Source: Prevotella sp. (GTDB lineage: Bacteria; Bacteroidota; Bacteroidia; Bacteroidales; Bacteroidaceae). From it: a stretch of 64,000 nt of DNA. Location of the stretch: assembly GCA_017619375.1 (NCBI GenBank), contig JAFZSL010000062.1:1-64000 (forward strand). The letters are read 5' to 3'. Made by a program: the position numbers and the translations under genes. The stretch's first letter is position 1, and each line of letters starts with the position of its first letter. Under the pieces are notes generated by a model. It saw only the letters and a list, made by a program, of their open reading frames with translations. It ran no database searches and had not been told where the DNA came from. Shown here one piece after another: positions 56,408-60,417 of this stretch.

Positions 56408-57229
56408 ATGGAAACTATAAAAAAATACTTGACAAGCAGAAACAAACGAGAGCGTGAAGCCTGTCTGCTTTGGCTAACCGCTTTTGGCATCCAATCGGTC
56501 GTAGACTTGAAGCCCAGTGCAGATTTGCTCCGCATCATCTGCAATCACATAGAAGGCAAATACGACATAGAGCGCACACGTAGCGAGGTTCGTGCTTTTT
56601 ACCATGAGCAGCACAAGATGAACGGCAGTGGTCATCACCACCGTTTCGAAGAAGCCGACAAGGTATCCGTGCGCATAGTGGACTATTTTGAGCGTGGGGA
56701 ATTCTCCCTTACGCCCGAATCATTCAGCTTCTCCCACCGCAGCCTGTTTCACAACCTATATCATCATTCCGGGCAACTGAGAGAGGCCGCGGCCAGCAAG
56801 AAGGAATGGGTATTGGGCAACACTTCCGTCCTTTATCCGAAGCATGAGGAAATCTCGCCCTACCTGAACTACCTGTTTTCCAACGAACGAGGCGTGGACC
56901 TTTCCAAGCTATCGCCCCAGCATCGTCTTCGCCATTTGAGCGAATTCATAGCCAAGTTGTTCATGATCAATGCATTCCAATATGCAAACAGTCGTACGAC
57001 TTTCGTCTATTCGATGAAATACCTCATGTCATTAGGCTATCAACTCCAAAACGACACTTTCTTCCGTGAGGCGTGGTATTTCCGCAATGCCATCATTCGT
57101 GCATGCTACACCAACATGCACCAGGGCGTTTATCCCACGACGAAGTACATGGAAATGTTTTTAAGCAACCTTTTCCTTAATGAGGAAAATGAGTTGCGCA
57201 ACCATCGCATGGTCATCAGGGGCGAATGA
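56408..57229 (+). CDS. Fic domain protein with degenerate active site
   Basis: The product is 273 residues and full length. Residues 108-160 (HRSLFHNLYHHSGQLREAAASKKEWVLG form) and 176-265 match Bacteroidota Fic enzymes, with the later part being YLMSLGYQLQNDTFF and the WYFRNAIIRACYTN helix. The expected catalytic loop HxF-x-x-GN-x-R-TT reads N188-A-F-Q-Y-A-N-S-R196-T-T, so the catalytic His is Asn and the first Gly is Ala. The N-terminal helix 45-50 (CNHIEG) resembles the inhibitory (S/T)xxxE(G/N) motif, with Cys in place of Ser/Thr. AMP transfer to target proteins is therefore unlikely. Its end overlaps the convergent peptidase gene by 14 bases. Confidence 0.82.
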   Translation: METIKKYLTSRNKREREACLLWLTAFGIQSVVDLKPSADLLRIICNHIEGKYDIERTRSEVRAFYHEQHKMNGSGHHHRFEEADKVSVRIVDYFERGEFSLTPESFSFSHRSLFHNLYHHSGQLREAAASKKEWVLGNTSVLYPKHEEISPYLNYLFSNERGVDLSKLSPQHRLRHLSEFIAKLFMINAFQYANSRTTFVYSMKYLMSLGYQLQNDTFFREAWYFRNAIIRACYTNMHQGVYPTTKYMEMFLSNLFLNEENELRNHRMVIRGE

Positions 57230-57977
57230 CTTTCTTCTCCACCAACCCCGACGTCACCCATTCCTGAAGCAAGCGGTTGCAATCGCCTGAAGCAGTCAGC
57301 GTGTCGATATCGTATTCACCCAAGACGATATCGACCATCTTCTGCATTGTGAAGTCTTCCCCTATCTTATCCCAGATGGTCTTCGCCGTCTCGTTGAAAG
57401 TGACGATACGGTGCATGTCGACCAAACGGCCGACGGTGTCCACCTTGATGATTGTCTTTCCCTTGACGTCCAGACGTAGGGAAGAGTTCTTGCAGTAGGT
57501 GGCGTTGTAATCCATCTGTCCATCGGTGGCGCTGTCTCTCACCAAGGCCTCTCCCTTGTTGAGGCCGACGACCTTGGCCAACACATCAGCCAGGTTCGCT
57601 TTCTCCGTCTCGCGATTGTTGTCGCCTTTCAACGTAAGAATCTCCCCATCCCTCCTCAAGACACGGTGCATGATGTAATGGTCTTTTTCTATTTCGGCCA
57701 ACACAATGTCGCCGGGTTTCACGTCTCGGATTTCCTTCAATAACACCACGTCCTCCTTGTCATGAATGGTGGGAAGCATACTGATGCCCGACGGCACCAT
57801 CTTCACCGTATATCCTTCATTTAGATAAGGTTTCATCACCTCGAAGAAGCGTGGGTTATCCACTTTCACCACATTTACGGAATCCTTATGAGGCCTCTTT
57901 TTGAAGGAAGGTCCCTTGCATGCGGTGAAGCAGGCCATCAGTGCCAATCCCAAGCAAAAGATGTGTATTCTTTTCAT
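57216..57977 (-). CDS. S24/S26-type peptidase fused to PqqD-like domain, lipoprotein
   Basis: The product is 253 residues. The start at 57977 gives a lipoprotein signal (LALMAC, Cys16; a second Cys at 20). The peptidase domain has Ser66 in SGISMLPT, then VKPGDIVLAE, His104 in YIMHRVLRRDG and KGDNN (117-121). The His in the second box marks the Sec11/SipW type with a Ser-His dyad. Residues about 170-250 form a PqqD-like domain (VTFNETAKTIWDKIG, YDIDTLTAS, LLQEWVTSGLVE). Two small peptide genes lie upstream on the same strand, and a terminator hairpin lies 39 bases before the start. The likely role is processing of those peptides. Confidence 0.78.
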   Translation of the reverse strand: MKRIHIFCLGLALMACFTACKGPSFKKRPHKDSVNVVKVDNPRFFEVMKPYLNEGYTVKMVPSGISMLPTIHDKEDVVLLKEIRDVKPGDIVLAEIEKDHYIMHRVLRRDGEILTLKGDNNRETEKANLADVLAKVVGLNKGEALVRDSATDGQMDYNATYCKNSSLRLDVKGKTIIKVDTVGRLVDMHRIVTFNETAKTIWDKIGEDFTMQKMVDIVLGEYDIDTLTASGDCNRLLQEWVTSGLVEKKVIRP

Positions 57978-58011
57978 TTTTCCAAGCAAGTTGAAGAAAG
58001 ATAGATAGCAC

Positions 58012-58039
58012 AAAAAAGCCAGGCTAAAAAGCCTGGCTT
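58012..58039 (-). terminator. Hairpin between peptide gene 1 and the peptidase gene
   Basis: On the minus strand, a 10-bp stem aagccaggct/agcctggctt (58039-58030 with 58025-58016) is followed by a T run. It lies 17 bases past the peptide stop and 38 bases before the peptidase start, so read-through is needed to reach the peptidase unless it has its own promoter. Confidence 0.85.
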
Positions 58040-58056
58040 GTTCTGCTTCTGATTGA

Positions 58057-58185
58057 TTAGAAGAGGGGAGCCTCCTCGTCGTCGCCACCAGTTGGGGTCT
58101 CTGACTCGGGATCGATAGTCTTCTCGCAGATAGCCTTGACATTTACAGTCACGACCTTTGTGATTGGTTCAGAATAAATCTTCAT
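58057..58185 (-). CDS. Small acidic precursor-like peptide, copy 1
   Basis: A 42-residue peptide beginning MKIYSEPITK. From residue 10 on it is nearly identical to the second peptide: KVVTVNVKAICEKTIDPESE, then T-P-TGGDDEEAPLF. The N-terminal half is beta-prone with alternating Val, and Cys20 is the only cysteine. The last 12 are acidic. This shape (conserved N-half, Gly-Gly, short acidic tail) resembles precursors of ribosomally made modified peptides, but no maturase other than the PqqD-containing peptidase is nearby. Near-perfect promoter at 58231-58261. Codon use and length argue that it is a real gene; proof needs expression data. Confidence 0.72.
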   Translation of the reverse strand: MKIYSEPITKVVTVNVKAICEKTIDPESETPTGGDDEEAPLF

Positions 58186-58230
58186 AACAGTAAATTTTAA
58201 TTGTTAAACAATAAATTATCAAAAACGATA

Positions 58231-58261
58231 CAAAGATAGGCATTTTTTTCTACCCACCAAA
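58231..58261 (-). promoter_or_regulatory. Promoter of peptide gene 1
   Basis: On the minus strand, TTTG at 58261-58258, a 19-base spacer and TATCTTTG at 58238-58231. The leader to the ATG at 58185 is about 40 bases. Confidence 0.8.
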
Positions 58262-58344
58262 AAAAATCATACTTTTTTTTCATCAGCCCCCAATTTATTT
58301 GACAAGAAAGGGGCAGAGCACGACGCATGGGCGAACTGGCGTAT

Positions 58345-58374
58345 ACAAAAAAGCCAGGCTAAAATGCCTGGCTT
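58345..58374 (-). terminator. Terminator after peptide gene 2
   Basis: On the minus strand, a 9-bp stem aagccaggc/gcctggctt (58374-58366 with 58359-58351), then a T run. Nearly the same stem sequence as at 58012-58039, consistent with duplication of the whole unit. Confidence 0.87.
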
Positions 58375-58396
58375 GTAGTTTTTTGCGATCAAATGA

Positions 58397-58528
58397 TTAG
58401 AAAAGGGGAGCCTCTTCGTCGTCACCACCAGTGTTTGTCTCTGATTCGGGATCGATGGTCTTCTCGCAAATGGCCTTGACATTCACAGTCACAACCTTAG
58501 TTGCAGGCATGAAATAGTTCTTTTTCAT
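58397..58528 (-). CDS. Small acidic precursor-like peptide, copy 2
   Basis: A 43-residue peptide beginning MKKNYFMPATKVV. From residue 11 it matches peptide 1 except for one position (Asn32 instead of Pro31), ending TGGDDEEAPLF. The N-terminus (MKKNYFMPATKVV) is of the kind seen in many short Bacteroidota proteins of unknown role. Cys21 is the single cysteine. The unit has its own near-perfect promoter and terminator, so two expression cassettes stand in tandem before the peptidase/PqqD gene. Confidence 0.72.
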   Translation of the reverse strand: MKKNYFMPATKVVTVNVKAICEKTIDPESETNTGGDDEEAPLF

Positions 58529-58583
58529 AATGGTAAATTTTTTGTATTAATACAGTTAAAACTTAATGTGTTAAAAACACGTT

Positions 58584-58615
58584 GCAAAGATATGTCTTTT
58601 TTCTATTTCAGCAAA
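58584..58615 (-). promoter_or_regulatory. Promoter of peptide gene 2
   Basis: On the minus strand, TTTG at 58615-58612, a 19-base spacer and TATCTTTG at 58592-58585. The initial transcribed sequence aacgtgttttt matches that predicted downstream of the -7 at 7116-7109. Confidence 0.82.
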
Positions 58616-58714: not shown

Positions 58715-58954
58715 TCATTTGAATTTGTTCCATAGCCAAAGTACGACAAGAGCGCCCACGGCAGAAGTACCGATTTGCCCTATGGTTCCTCCCCATGAGA
58801 TGTCGAGCAGATGGAAGAGCCATCCTCCAACGAGGCCTCCCACGATACCAAGAATGAGGTCGACCAAGCAGCCTTTTCCATGTCCTGATGTCAACCTTGA
58901 TGCGATGTAACCGGCGATGACGCCGACAATGATGGAATATAACAAATAGCTCAT
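58715..58954 (-). CDS. GlsB/YeaQ/YmgE family small membrane protein
   Basis: The product is 79 residues with three membrane segments. The pattern IIVGVIAGYIASRLTSGHGKGCLVDLILGIVGGLVGGWLFHLL is typical of the transglycosylase-associated family, often stress induced, with unknown molecular function. It lies 30 bases after the vsr stop on the same strand. Confidence 0.9.
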   Translation of the reverse strand: MSYLLYSIIVGVIAGYIASRLTSGHGKGCLVDLILGIVGGLVGGWLFHLLDISWGGTIGQIGTSAVGALVVLWLWNKFK

Positions 58955-58984
58955 ACGTTATGAAATTAAGGTTTACTATAGGTT

Positions 58985-59500
58985 TCATTCTATTGGATTC
59001 ATTCTGCCTTCAGCCGCCAATCCCTCACTGCGTTCCCCTTCCTCCAAGTCTGGATAAGCAATGGAGTGGTCTTTGAGGTAGATGGAATTGAGCGTGTATT
59101 CCAATGCAGAGAGTGTTTGCACCCTGATGGAAGGTTTAAGTTGGCACTCCCAGACGACGATGGTGTGCCACCCCATCTTGGCGAGTTGCCTCAATCCTTC
59201 CTGGTCCCTTGTTTTGTTGCGTTCTATTTTGTTTTTCCAAAACTCGGTATTGGTTTTTGGCATTTTGAAAGCCTTGCAGTTGTCATGCCCGTGCCAGAAG
59301 CAACCGTTGACGAAAATGCAGGTTCGGTATTTCCTCATGACAAGGTCGGGATGCCCCGGCAGCCTCTTATGGTATAGCCTGTATCTGAACCCCCTTGAGA
59401 AGAGGTATTTCCTGACGATGATTTCCGGCTTGGTGTTTTTCGCCCTGATGGCCGCCATCACCTTGTGTCTTTTTTCCTTGTCGAACACATCCATAGGCAT
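58985..59500 (-). CDS. vsr: Very short patch repair endonuclease
   Basis: The product is 171 residues. It nicks next to T:G mismatches that arise from deaminated 5-methylcytosine. Family signatures are MDVFDKEKRHKVMAAIRAKNTKPE, GHPDLVMRKYRTCIFVNGCFWHGHDNC with the zinc/metal residues, and GWHTIVVWECQLK. MDVFDKEK at 59494 is an alternative start two codons in. The last 30 or so residues (LEEGERSEGLAAEGRMNPIE) are beyond the usual family end. No cytosine methyltransferase is in the window, so this vsr is an orphan here. It starts 17 bases before the cysE stop on the same strand. Confidence 0.9.
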   Translation of the reverse strand: MPMDVFDKEKRHKVMAAIRAKNTKPEIIVRKYLFSRGFRYRLYHKRLPGHPDLVMRKYRTCIFVNGCFWHGHDNCKAFKMPKTNTEFWKNKIERNKTRDQEGLRQLAKMGWHTIVVWECQLKPSIRVQTLSALEYTLNSIYLKDHSIAYPDLEEGERSEGLAAEGRMNPIE

Positions 59501-59517
59501 GACTGGAAAAGAGCATA

Positions 59518-60417
59518 CTAAATGCCAAGTCCTCCATTGAAGGAGACATCCACCGCCTTGCTTTGCAATATCCTCGACCCTGGAGGCACGCTATGGGTCA
59601 ACCAGATGTTGCCTCCGATGACCGTATTGCTCCCGATGGTGATTCTCCCAAGGATGGTGGAGTTGGCATAGATGGTGACATGGTCTCCAATGATGGGATG
59701 CCTGGGAACATTGACAGGTCTCCCGTTATCATCCACTTGGAAATTCTTGGCTCCCAGGGTGACGCCTTGGTAAAGTGTCACATGGCTTCCGATAATGCAG
59801 GTCTCTCCGATGACCACGCCGGTGCCATGGTCTATGGCGAAATATTCCCCGATTTTCGCACCAGGATGGATGTCAATGCCTGTTGCGGAATGTGCCATTT
59901 CGGTGAGTATCCTTGGGAGGATGGGCACCCCCATGACATAGAGTTGGTGTGCCACCCTGTAGTGCAGCATGGTTTGCACGACAGGATAGCAAAAAATCAC
60001 CTCGCTGTAGTTTTTTACAGCCGGGTCGTTGTCGTAGATGGCGCTCACGTCGGTATAGAGCATCCTTTTCACTTCAGGCAGGGCCTCTATGAAATGCAGC
60101 ATTTTCTCCCTGGCCTGGTTCAGGGTTTCGTCATCACACTCCTTCTCGAATCTGAGAGCCAATGCGATTTGCTCATTCAGGAGCAGGCTGAGCCTCTCCA
60201 CATTGACCCCTACATGGTATTTCTTGAAGAGCGGGTCACCCTGTTTGTCGTCGAAATAGGCGGGGAAAACGATGTCTCTTACGAGAGACACGATTTCTTT
60301 CAAAGCCTCCACCGATGGTAGTTGCTTGATGTGGCATGAGCAAGGCATGATGGCCTTTTCTTCCGGCGACATGGCGGTAAGCTGTTTGATGACTTGATTG
60401 AAATCTTCTGTTTGCAT
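59518..60417 (-). CDS. cysE: Serine O-acetyltransferase, EpsC type
   Basis: The product is 299 residues. A long N-terminal helical domain is followed by the hexapeptide left-handed beta-helix with IDIHPGAKIGEYFAIDHGTGVVIGETCIIG, TLYQGVTLGA and HPIIGDHVTIYANSTILG. It acetylates serine for cysteine synthesis. The His of IDHGTGVVIGET is the active-site residue. It is first after the esterase gene by 26 bases and is followed 17 bases later by vsr, so it may be part of one minus-strand transcript. Confidence 0.93.
   Translation of the reverse strand: MQTEDFNQVIKQLTAMSPEEKAIMPCSCHIKQLPSVEALKEIVSLVRDIVFPAYFDDKQGDPLFKKYHVGVNVERLSLLLNEQIALALRFEKECDDETLNQAREKMLHFIEALPEVKRMLYTDVSAIYDNDPAVKNYSEVIFCYPVVQTMLHYRVAHQLYVMGVPILPRILTEMAHSATGIDIHPGAKIGEYFAIDHGTGVVIGETCIIGSHVTLYQGVTLGAKNFQVDDNGRPVNVPRHPIIGDHVTIYANSTILGRITIGSNTVIGGNIWLTHSVPPGSRILQSKAVDVSFNGGLGI

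Follow-up and report, generated by a model that had tools for sequence, protein, structure and literature searches.

What do two nearly identical small peptide genes do beside a gene in which a peptidase domain is joined to a PqqD-like domain? The question is raised by a 64,000-nt stretch of Prevotella sp. DNA (assembly GCA_017619375.1, contig JAFZSL010000062.1, positions 1 to 64,000), referred to as a whole as the window, for which an earlier note had proposed a minimal peptide-processing locus matching no nameable system. It is considered moderately probable that both twins are precursors from which a processed and probably modified peptide of ribosomal origin is made, and that their leader would be bound and cut by the fusion protein. 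The material for this reading was computed directly and consists of the gene calls, both domain assignments, the constraint on coding sequence, the co-occurrence of the fusion with the peptide pair, and the presence of YxxP peptides inside clusters of S26 peptidase, HprK-like and RRE genes, the RRE being the recognition element of ribosomally synthesized and post-translationally modified peptides (RiPPs).

Domain structure of the fusion protein

The fusion gene (57216..57977, minus strand) encodes a 253-aa protein in which a probable lipoprotein signal is followed by an S24/S26 peptidase domain of the SipW/Sec11 type and a C-terminal PqqD-like RRE, as assigned with Pfam and NCBIfam profiles. 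Pfam placed Peptidase_S24 at residues 63-124 (57606..57791, minus strand; E 4.5e-7, above the gathering score) and PqqD at residues 185-246 (57240..57425, minus strand; E 6.6e-9, 36.4 bits against a gathering score of 23.4), which upholds the description of the protein as a peptidase joined to a PqqD-like domain. The Pfam Peptidase_S26 model stayed below its cut-off. An RRE profile (A4) of 15 rows, the C-terminal domain of the fusion included, reached the solved RREs TbiB1, 9x90, LppB (9x8z; E 1.1e-6), TfuB1 and PqqD. The PqqD-like nature of this domain was borne out by profile search; P0001 alone gave no match to solved structures.

Ser66, His104 and Asp119 of the fusion were invariant across 10 aligned S26 rows, and Asp131, which lies beyond the S24/S26 domain match, occupied a nearly invariant column. 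The first three residues would fit a Ser-His-Asp leader peptidase of the type found in linear polyphosphorylated peptide (LPP) pathways, in which case the counterpart of LppS D93 would be D119 or D131. The reading frame is open further 5', to 58142, and the ATG at 57977 was backed by locus L001 (contig C252 of genome G049, Prevotella sp. RGIG6036), whose fusion is 71% identical to that of the window. A hydrophobic N-terminal segment ending in Cys motifs was present in the fusions of the window (residues 1-20, 57918..57977, minus strand; LMAC / FTAC), L001 and genome G085, the signals of the last two ending in LVSC / FCAC and LTGC. Such a Cys-ended hydrophobic start typifies lipoproteins by the lipobox rule, and the N-terminus is probably a lipoprotein signal. 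Because the fusions look like lipoproteins, the RRE would sit outside the cytoplasm.

The twin peptides

Two near-identical peptides sharing the strings previously reported were found upstream of the fusion on the same strand, exactly as the earlier note had described. The order on the minus strand is a 43-aa peptide gene (58397..58528), a 42-aa peptide gene (58057..58185) and the fusion, with 211 nt between the peptide genes and 79 nt from the second of them to the ATG of the fusion. Both precursor-like products of these open reading frames (ORFs) have a single Cys and a C-terminal PLF, preceded by the segment YFMP in the 43-mer and YSEP in the 42-mer. They lack a signal peptide, and no family was found in Pfam or NCBIfam for the peptides tested.

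The window twins, compared over their 33 shared codons, show about 10.5 silent changes and 2.5 that replace an amino acid, so that the protein sequence is kept more than chance would allow (silent divergence, dS, 0.72; replacement divergence, dN, 0.033), and the pair of L001 gave a dS of 0.41 and a dN of 0. For the leaders of orthologues, dS was 0.52-0.56 and dN about 0.02. The cores are alike inside each of the two species and different between them. By these counts the twins undergo concerted change as a pair, with silent drift.

Co-occurrence of fusion and peptide pair

A match to both domains was found in 3 of 200 genomes of the genus, among the matches listed; of 60 relatives searched at E 1e-25, one had it, the window's own genome. 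A tandem pair of peptides with the conserved Cys and terminal PLF (Cys/PLF peptides) was present in all three fusion genomes within 6 kb of the fusion, adjoining it in the window and L001 and lying 5.4 kb upstream in G085. Full-length Cys/PLF matches occurred in 6 of the 200 genomes (31 reach E 0.01, mostly through the leader alone). The chance that all three fusions fall among those six is about 1.5e-5 (20/1313400), a figure that ignores kinship and for which four of the six genomes had supplied profile rows. In an S26 tree the three fusions clustered with a support of 0.92, apart from the operon S26 proteins of the genus in the portion of the tree examined.

These results bear on the alternative that the neighbourhood is accidental and the fusion a signal-peptidase-like or S24-like protein of the ordinary kind. 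Its top NCBIfam model, archaeal-type signal peptidase I, although below the cut-off, points that way; the rarity of the fusion, its RRE domain and the nearby pair in every genome that has it make this explanation very improbable.

Peptide-containing clusters in the class

An S26 profile (A2) matched 14 of 346 genomes of the window's class and 34 of 295 of its order. Loci were taken from all 40 matched genomes outside the genus (41 loci) and from the window genome (1 locus). HprK-like genes were present in 37 of these 42 loci, a separate RRE ORF in 35, an ABC transporter in 27 and an NTP-transferase in 19, the thresholds for cluster genes being lenient (1e-4, 1e-3) and some of the loci having supplied query sequences. 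A YxxP peptide lay between the RRE and HprK-like genes in six loci (L205, L206, L207, L209, L213 and L214); the order was peptide-HprK-S26-RRE-NTP-ABC in L148 and peptide-RRE-HprK-S26 in L152.

Small ORFs with a strict Y..P motif were found in 7 of the 42 loci, as compared with a mean of 0.38 and a maximum of 4 for 360 other residue pairs. The looser motif [KR]..[YW]..P was not commoner than expected (16 loci, against 8-18 for control motifs), and the strict form was picked after this outcome was known; the leader tests then used a profile, built from 9 embedded peptides of eight seed loci. In a leave-one-out run of this profile as a hidden Markov model, 12 bits were reached at 10 of the 42 loci, of which six belong to the eight seed loci and four do not, and at none of the 42 with reversed ORFs. 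The strict DNA pattern gave 66 matches in the 40 genomes; 4 loci account for the 7 that lie no farther than 7 kb from an S26 gene, and most of the 42 loci held no recognisable YxxP peptide.

Three further arrangements were noted among these clusters. Four tandem YxxP peptides of 25-27 aa, almost coreless, lie in L151 (8320-8780), with RRE, NTP-transferase and S26 genes 0.3-2 kb away. A single long ORF carries both an S26-profile and an ABC-transporter match in L208 (5095-7377), and another does so in L217 (6907-9168); each looks like a leader peptidase fused to an exporter. In L053 (6020-11143), L059, L157 and L160-L162, an HprK-like/S26/RRE operon stands beside sigma-factor-like and HtrA-like genes with a small exported-looking protein between, HtrA having been identified by Pfam in L053 and the other calls made by look.

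The MKKxYxxP peptides of the genus

The DNA pattern for MKKxYxxP gave 12 matches in the window genome, one of which looks spurious, against 1 in a reversed control; it misses the 42-mer. It was present in 194 of the 200 genus genomes, with 0-3 control matches per genome. Outside the genus, class-wide raw counts were near the control (by eye, unsummed), and raw counts there prove nothing. An alignment of 10 Cys/PLF rows, including the window twins, three from contig C39 of the window genome and the peptides of L001, G085 and G176, showed K, Y, P, K, V, C and the terminal PLF to be invariant. The window genome carries a dispersed MKKxYxxP family of which the twins form a Cys/PLF subfamily. Other dispersed peptides reached leader-profile scores of up to 25.5 bits, above those of the twins, whose link with the embedded YxxP peptides is suggestive. 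The precursor idea gained from the YxxP segment, which is like that of the embedded peptides, and from the duplicated pair in each fusion genome, and lost by the marginal leader scores of the twins themselves.

A different origin was considered for these peptides, namely that they are small cytoplasmic proteins acting intact, as regulators or partners of secreted proteins, their YxxP likeness being coincidental or ancestral only. Reading the fetched pattern loci gave 36 small ORFs, some six of them apparently spurious (MKKRY[LF][AP]PS...). For 20 of the 36, an ORF on the same strand ends no more than 150 nt upstream; in 16 of those 20 its product carried a sorting-domain-like tail, the rough yardstick being 11 of 219 ORFs in other loci. 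The term rests on a regular expression, because the single upstream secreted-type ORF tested, that of L005, gave no family match. This placement, the missing signal peptide and the persistence of the pattern in genomes without an S26 match (below) agree with intact function; the YxxP peptides embedded in RRE/HprK-like/S26 operons and the pairing of a conserved N-terminus with variable C-termini do not, and we hold it to be quite improbable. In the window genome itself, the dispersed peptides of L061-L064, L067-L069 and L007 lie directly 3' of genes encoding RGIYIVNGKKVVVK-like ends.

Other candidate partners in the genome

Beside the fusion, no kinase, radical SAM, cyclase or transporter was recognised on reading the ORFs, in line with what had been claimed for the locus. 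The claim does not extend to the genome, where an HprK-like/S26/RRE group is found on contig C16, an S26/ABC pair on C55, and radical SAM, PqqD and NTP-transferase genes together; the word 'minimal' had to be given up, as the likely partners lie elsewhere in the same genome. Tandem Cys/PLF peptides are also divergent from a TIGR04133 radical SAM/SPASM gene on C39 of the window genome (511 bits against a cut-off of 425) and on C28 of G176, whose enzyme was assigned by similarity. Because these sister peptides lie divergent from such an enzyme, the conserved Cys may be modified, which is taken as a lead. A search of the open-access literature for the TIGR04133 name found nothing.

The twins could be RiPP-like and yet matured by the HprK-S26-RRE operon or by the radical SAM enzyme, the fusion having another substrate or role. 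In favour of this, a fusion-based S26 query matched 174 of the 200 genus genomes, and 26 of the 27 best-scoring unfused S26 loci read had a PqqD gene in the vicinity; the TIGR04133 enzyme adjoins the same subfamily in two genomes, the fusion looks periplasmic, and Cys/PLF peptides occur without it. This last point qualifies the proposed co-occurrence: the pair accompanies all three fusions, but three of the six Cys/PLF genomes (G176, G009 and G036) have no fusion among the matches listed, and because of these the pairing is not obligatory. The G036 contig ends just past the peptides, and in G009 only 128 nt separate the Fic-like gene from the next gene at the matching site. A duplicated pair within about 6 kb of each of the three fusions tells against separate maturation, as does the leader frameshift in one of the two peptide copies of fusion-less G009, a single genome. 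Maturation by other machinery is rated somewhat unlikely.

Two further loci of the window genome are recorded here. In L008 (C55, 330-2926) radical SAM, PqqD-like and NTP-transferase genes stand in a row, the nearest NCBIfam model for the PqqD protein being of the lasso type (41 bits, below the cut-off of 80). In L058 (C52, 3402-5410) a radical SAM/SPASM gene with a PqqD match adjoins a protein with SSY[ED]CAG tail repeats, possibly a separate RiPP system.

Proposed mechanism and evidence against it

In the mechanism favoured here, the N-terminal K-x-Y-x-x-P-x-x-K-V segment of the twins would be the leader, bound by the PqqD-like RRE, and the attached SipW-like Ser-His-Asp peptidase would remove it by a cut close to the conserved Cys, which would release the acidic C-terminal core with its PLF end. 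Binding and cutting would thereby be united in a single lipoprotein-anchored polypeptide, and one chain could serve to assay leader recognition along with cleavage. Any modification would be the work of enzymes whose genes lie in other parts of the genome, the candidates being the HprK-like protein from the HprK-S26-RRE operon and the TIGR04133 radical SAM beside three sister peptides. The precursor would first have to be moved by an exporter, of which the S26/ABC pair on C55 is an example; otherwise the fusion would serve another substrate. Binding, cleavage and its site, any modification, export and the biological role are all deduced from sequence.

Besides the genomes with peptides and no detected fusion, several observations weigh against this reading. 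The main puzzle is that the fusions look exported and the peptides carry no signal peptide. With the leader profile the 43-mer scored a marginal 11.3 bits (rank 33 of 7,402 sequences) and the 42-mer 7.6 bits, under the best unexplained background ORF (9.8 bits, among 7,374); residue Y+5 of the twins is Thr, outside the [LVIAFY] of the published motif. A structure prediction for the two sequences was unusable (pLDDT, the predicted local distance difference test, 41.6). In the class clusters, seed loci L147 and L159 failed the leave-one-out test, and the identity of the HprK-like proteins rests on weak matches below curated cut-offs together with operon position. In 26 genus genomes (six inferred from gaps in the list) the S26 query found no match at E 1e-5, yet 25 of these retain the MKKxYxxP pattern, with 100 matches in total, and the pattern thus does not appear to track the peptidase as far as the fusion-based query sees it; since the fusion, which served as query, is divergent among S26 proteins, some of the 26 negatives may be misses.

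A broader reading was also weighed, in which the window's class runs a widespread LPP-like system whose Prevotella precursors lie scattered and are handled in trans, one lineage having a fused RRE-peptidase lipoprotein that captures and cuts precursors outside the cytoplasm. We consider this extended scheme unlikely, and both it and the favoured mechanism were rated lower because 25 of the 26 S26-negative genomes keep the peptide pattern. We know of no precedent for an RRE acting beyond the inner membrane. If the scheme were true, modification would take place at a new site, the conserved Cys.

Transcription signals and neighbouring genes

Boxes of the TAnnTTTG type (TATCTTTG), which we take to be of the Bacteroidetes -7 type, were seen on inspection 5' of the 43-aa gene (58585..58592, minus strand) and of the 42-aa gene (58231..58238, minus strand). 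A terminator-like hairpin with a T run, located by eye and unscored, follows each gene (58346..58374 and 58011..58039, respectively, both on the minus strand). Because each peptide gene has its own box and T-run hairpin, the two are probably transcribed separately.

A 273-aa gene (56408..57229, plus strand) is convergent to the fusion and gave a Fic match below the cut-off in the profile search; its homologue is convergent to the fusion in all three fusion genomes. GlsB/YeaQ-like, Vsr and CysE genes adjoin the pair (58715-60417), and in G085, G009 and G176 as well a CysE homologue stands no farther than about 3 kb from the peptides.

Comparison with known systems

The statement that the locus matches no nameable system does not hold, since its parts resemble the LPP system of Bacillota reported in 2026. 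In the available passages of PMC13381572, these RiPPs are made with a SipW-like peptidase (LppS), an RRE (LppB), an HprK-like kinase, an NTP-transferase, an ABC exporter and YxxP precursors; LppB presents the leader to LppS, cleavage by the SipW-like peptidase is RRE-dependent, the phosphate is placed on core Ser3, and the discussion calls LPPs restricted to Bacillota. As far as those passages allow comparison, the window locus shares what appears to be a SipW-like Ser-His-Asp leader peptidase with a PqqD-like RRE, and short precursors with a YxxP leader and variable core. It differs in that the LPP RRE is discrete, whereas that of the window is fused to the peptidase in a probable lipoprotein; in that no kinase, NTP-transferase or MsbA-like transporter was recognised on reading the locus; in that the window peptides match only the YxxP of the leader YxxPxVLxHQxIxFETxxS; and in having a conserved Cys near the position of the modified Ser. 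Judged by these features, the window locus resembles an LPP locus in plan, misses several of the defining features and is not classed as LPP.

Phosphorylated lasso peptides of the paeninodin type, as described in the same passages of PMC13381572, likewise have a PqqD-like RRE, a [Y/W]xxP leader, an HprK-like kinase and an NTP-transferase, but neither a macrolactam cyclase nor a B2 cysteine peptidase was noticed when the loci were read, including the ORFs at 50-64 kb of the window; no profile search for these two enzymes was made. With the TIGR04133 family the likeness is that sister Cys/PLF peptides adjoin the enzyme, and the difference is that no such enzyme stands by the window pair.

The passages available from PMC10352776 and PMC7533575 do not mention S26/RRE/HprK-type clusters, and no report of such clusters or peptides in Bacteroidota was recognised among the open-access papers listed. 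The related clusters of the window's class share HprK-like, NTP-transferase and ABC genes with the published LPP plan, the likeness being drawn from gene content and leaders and not from RRE phylogeny. On this comparison many unannotated small proteins would gain a testable origin as YxxP precursors, and a pathway described as confined to Bacillota is suggested to have close analogues in a major group of gut and rumen bacteria.

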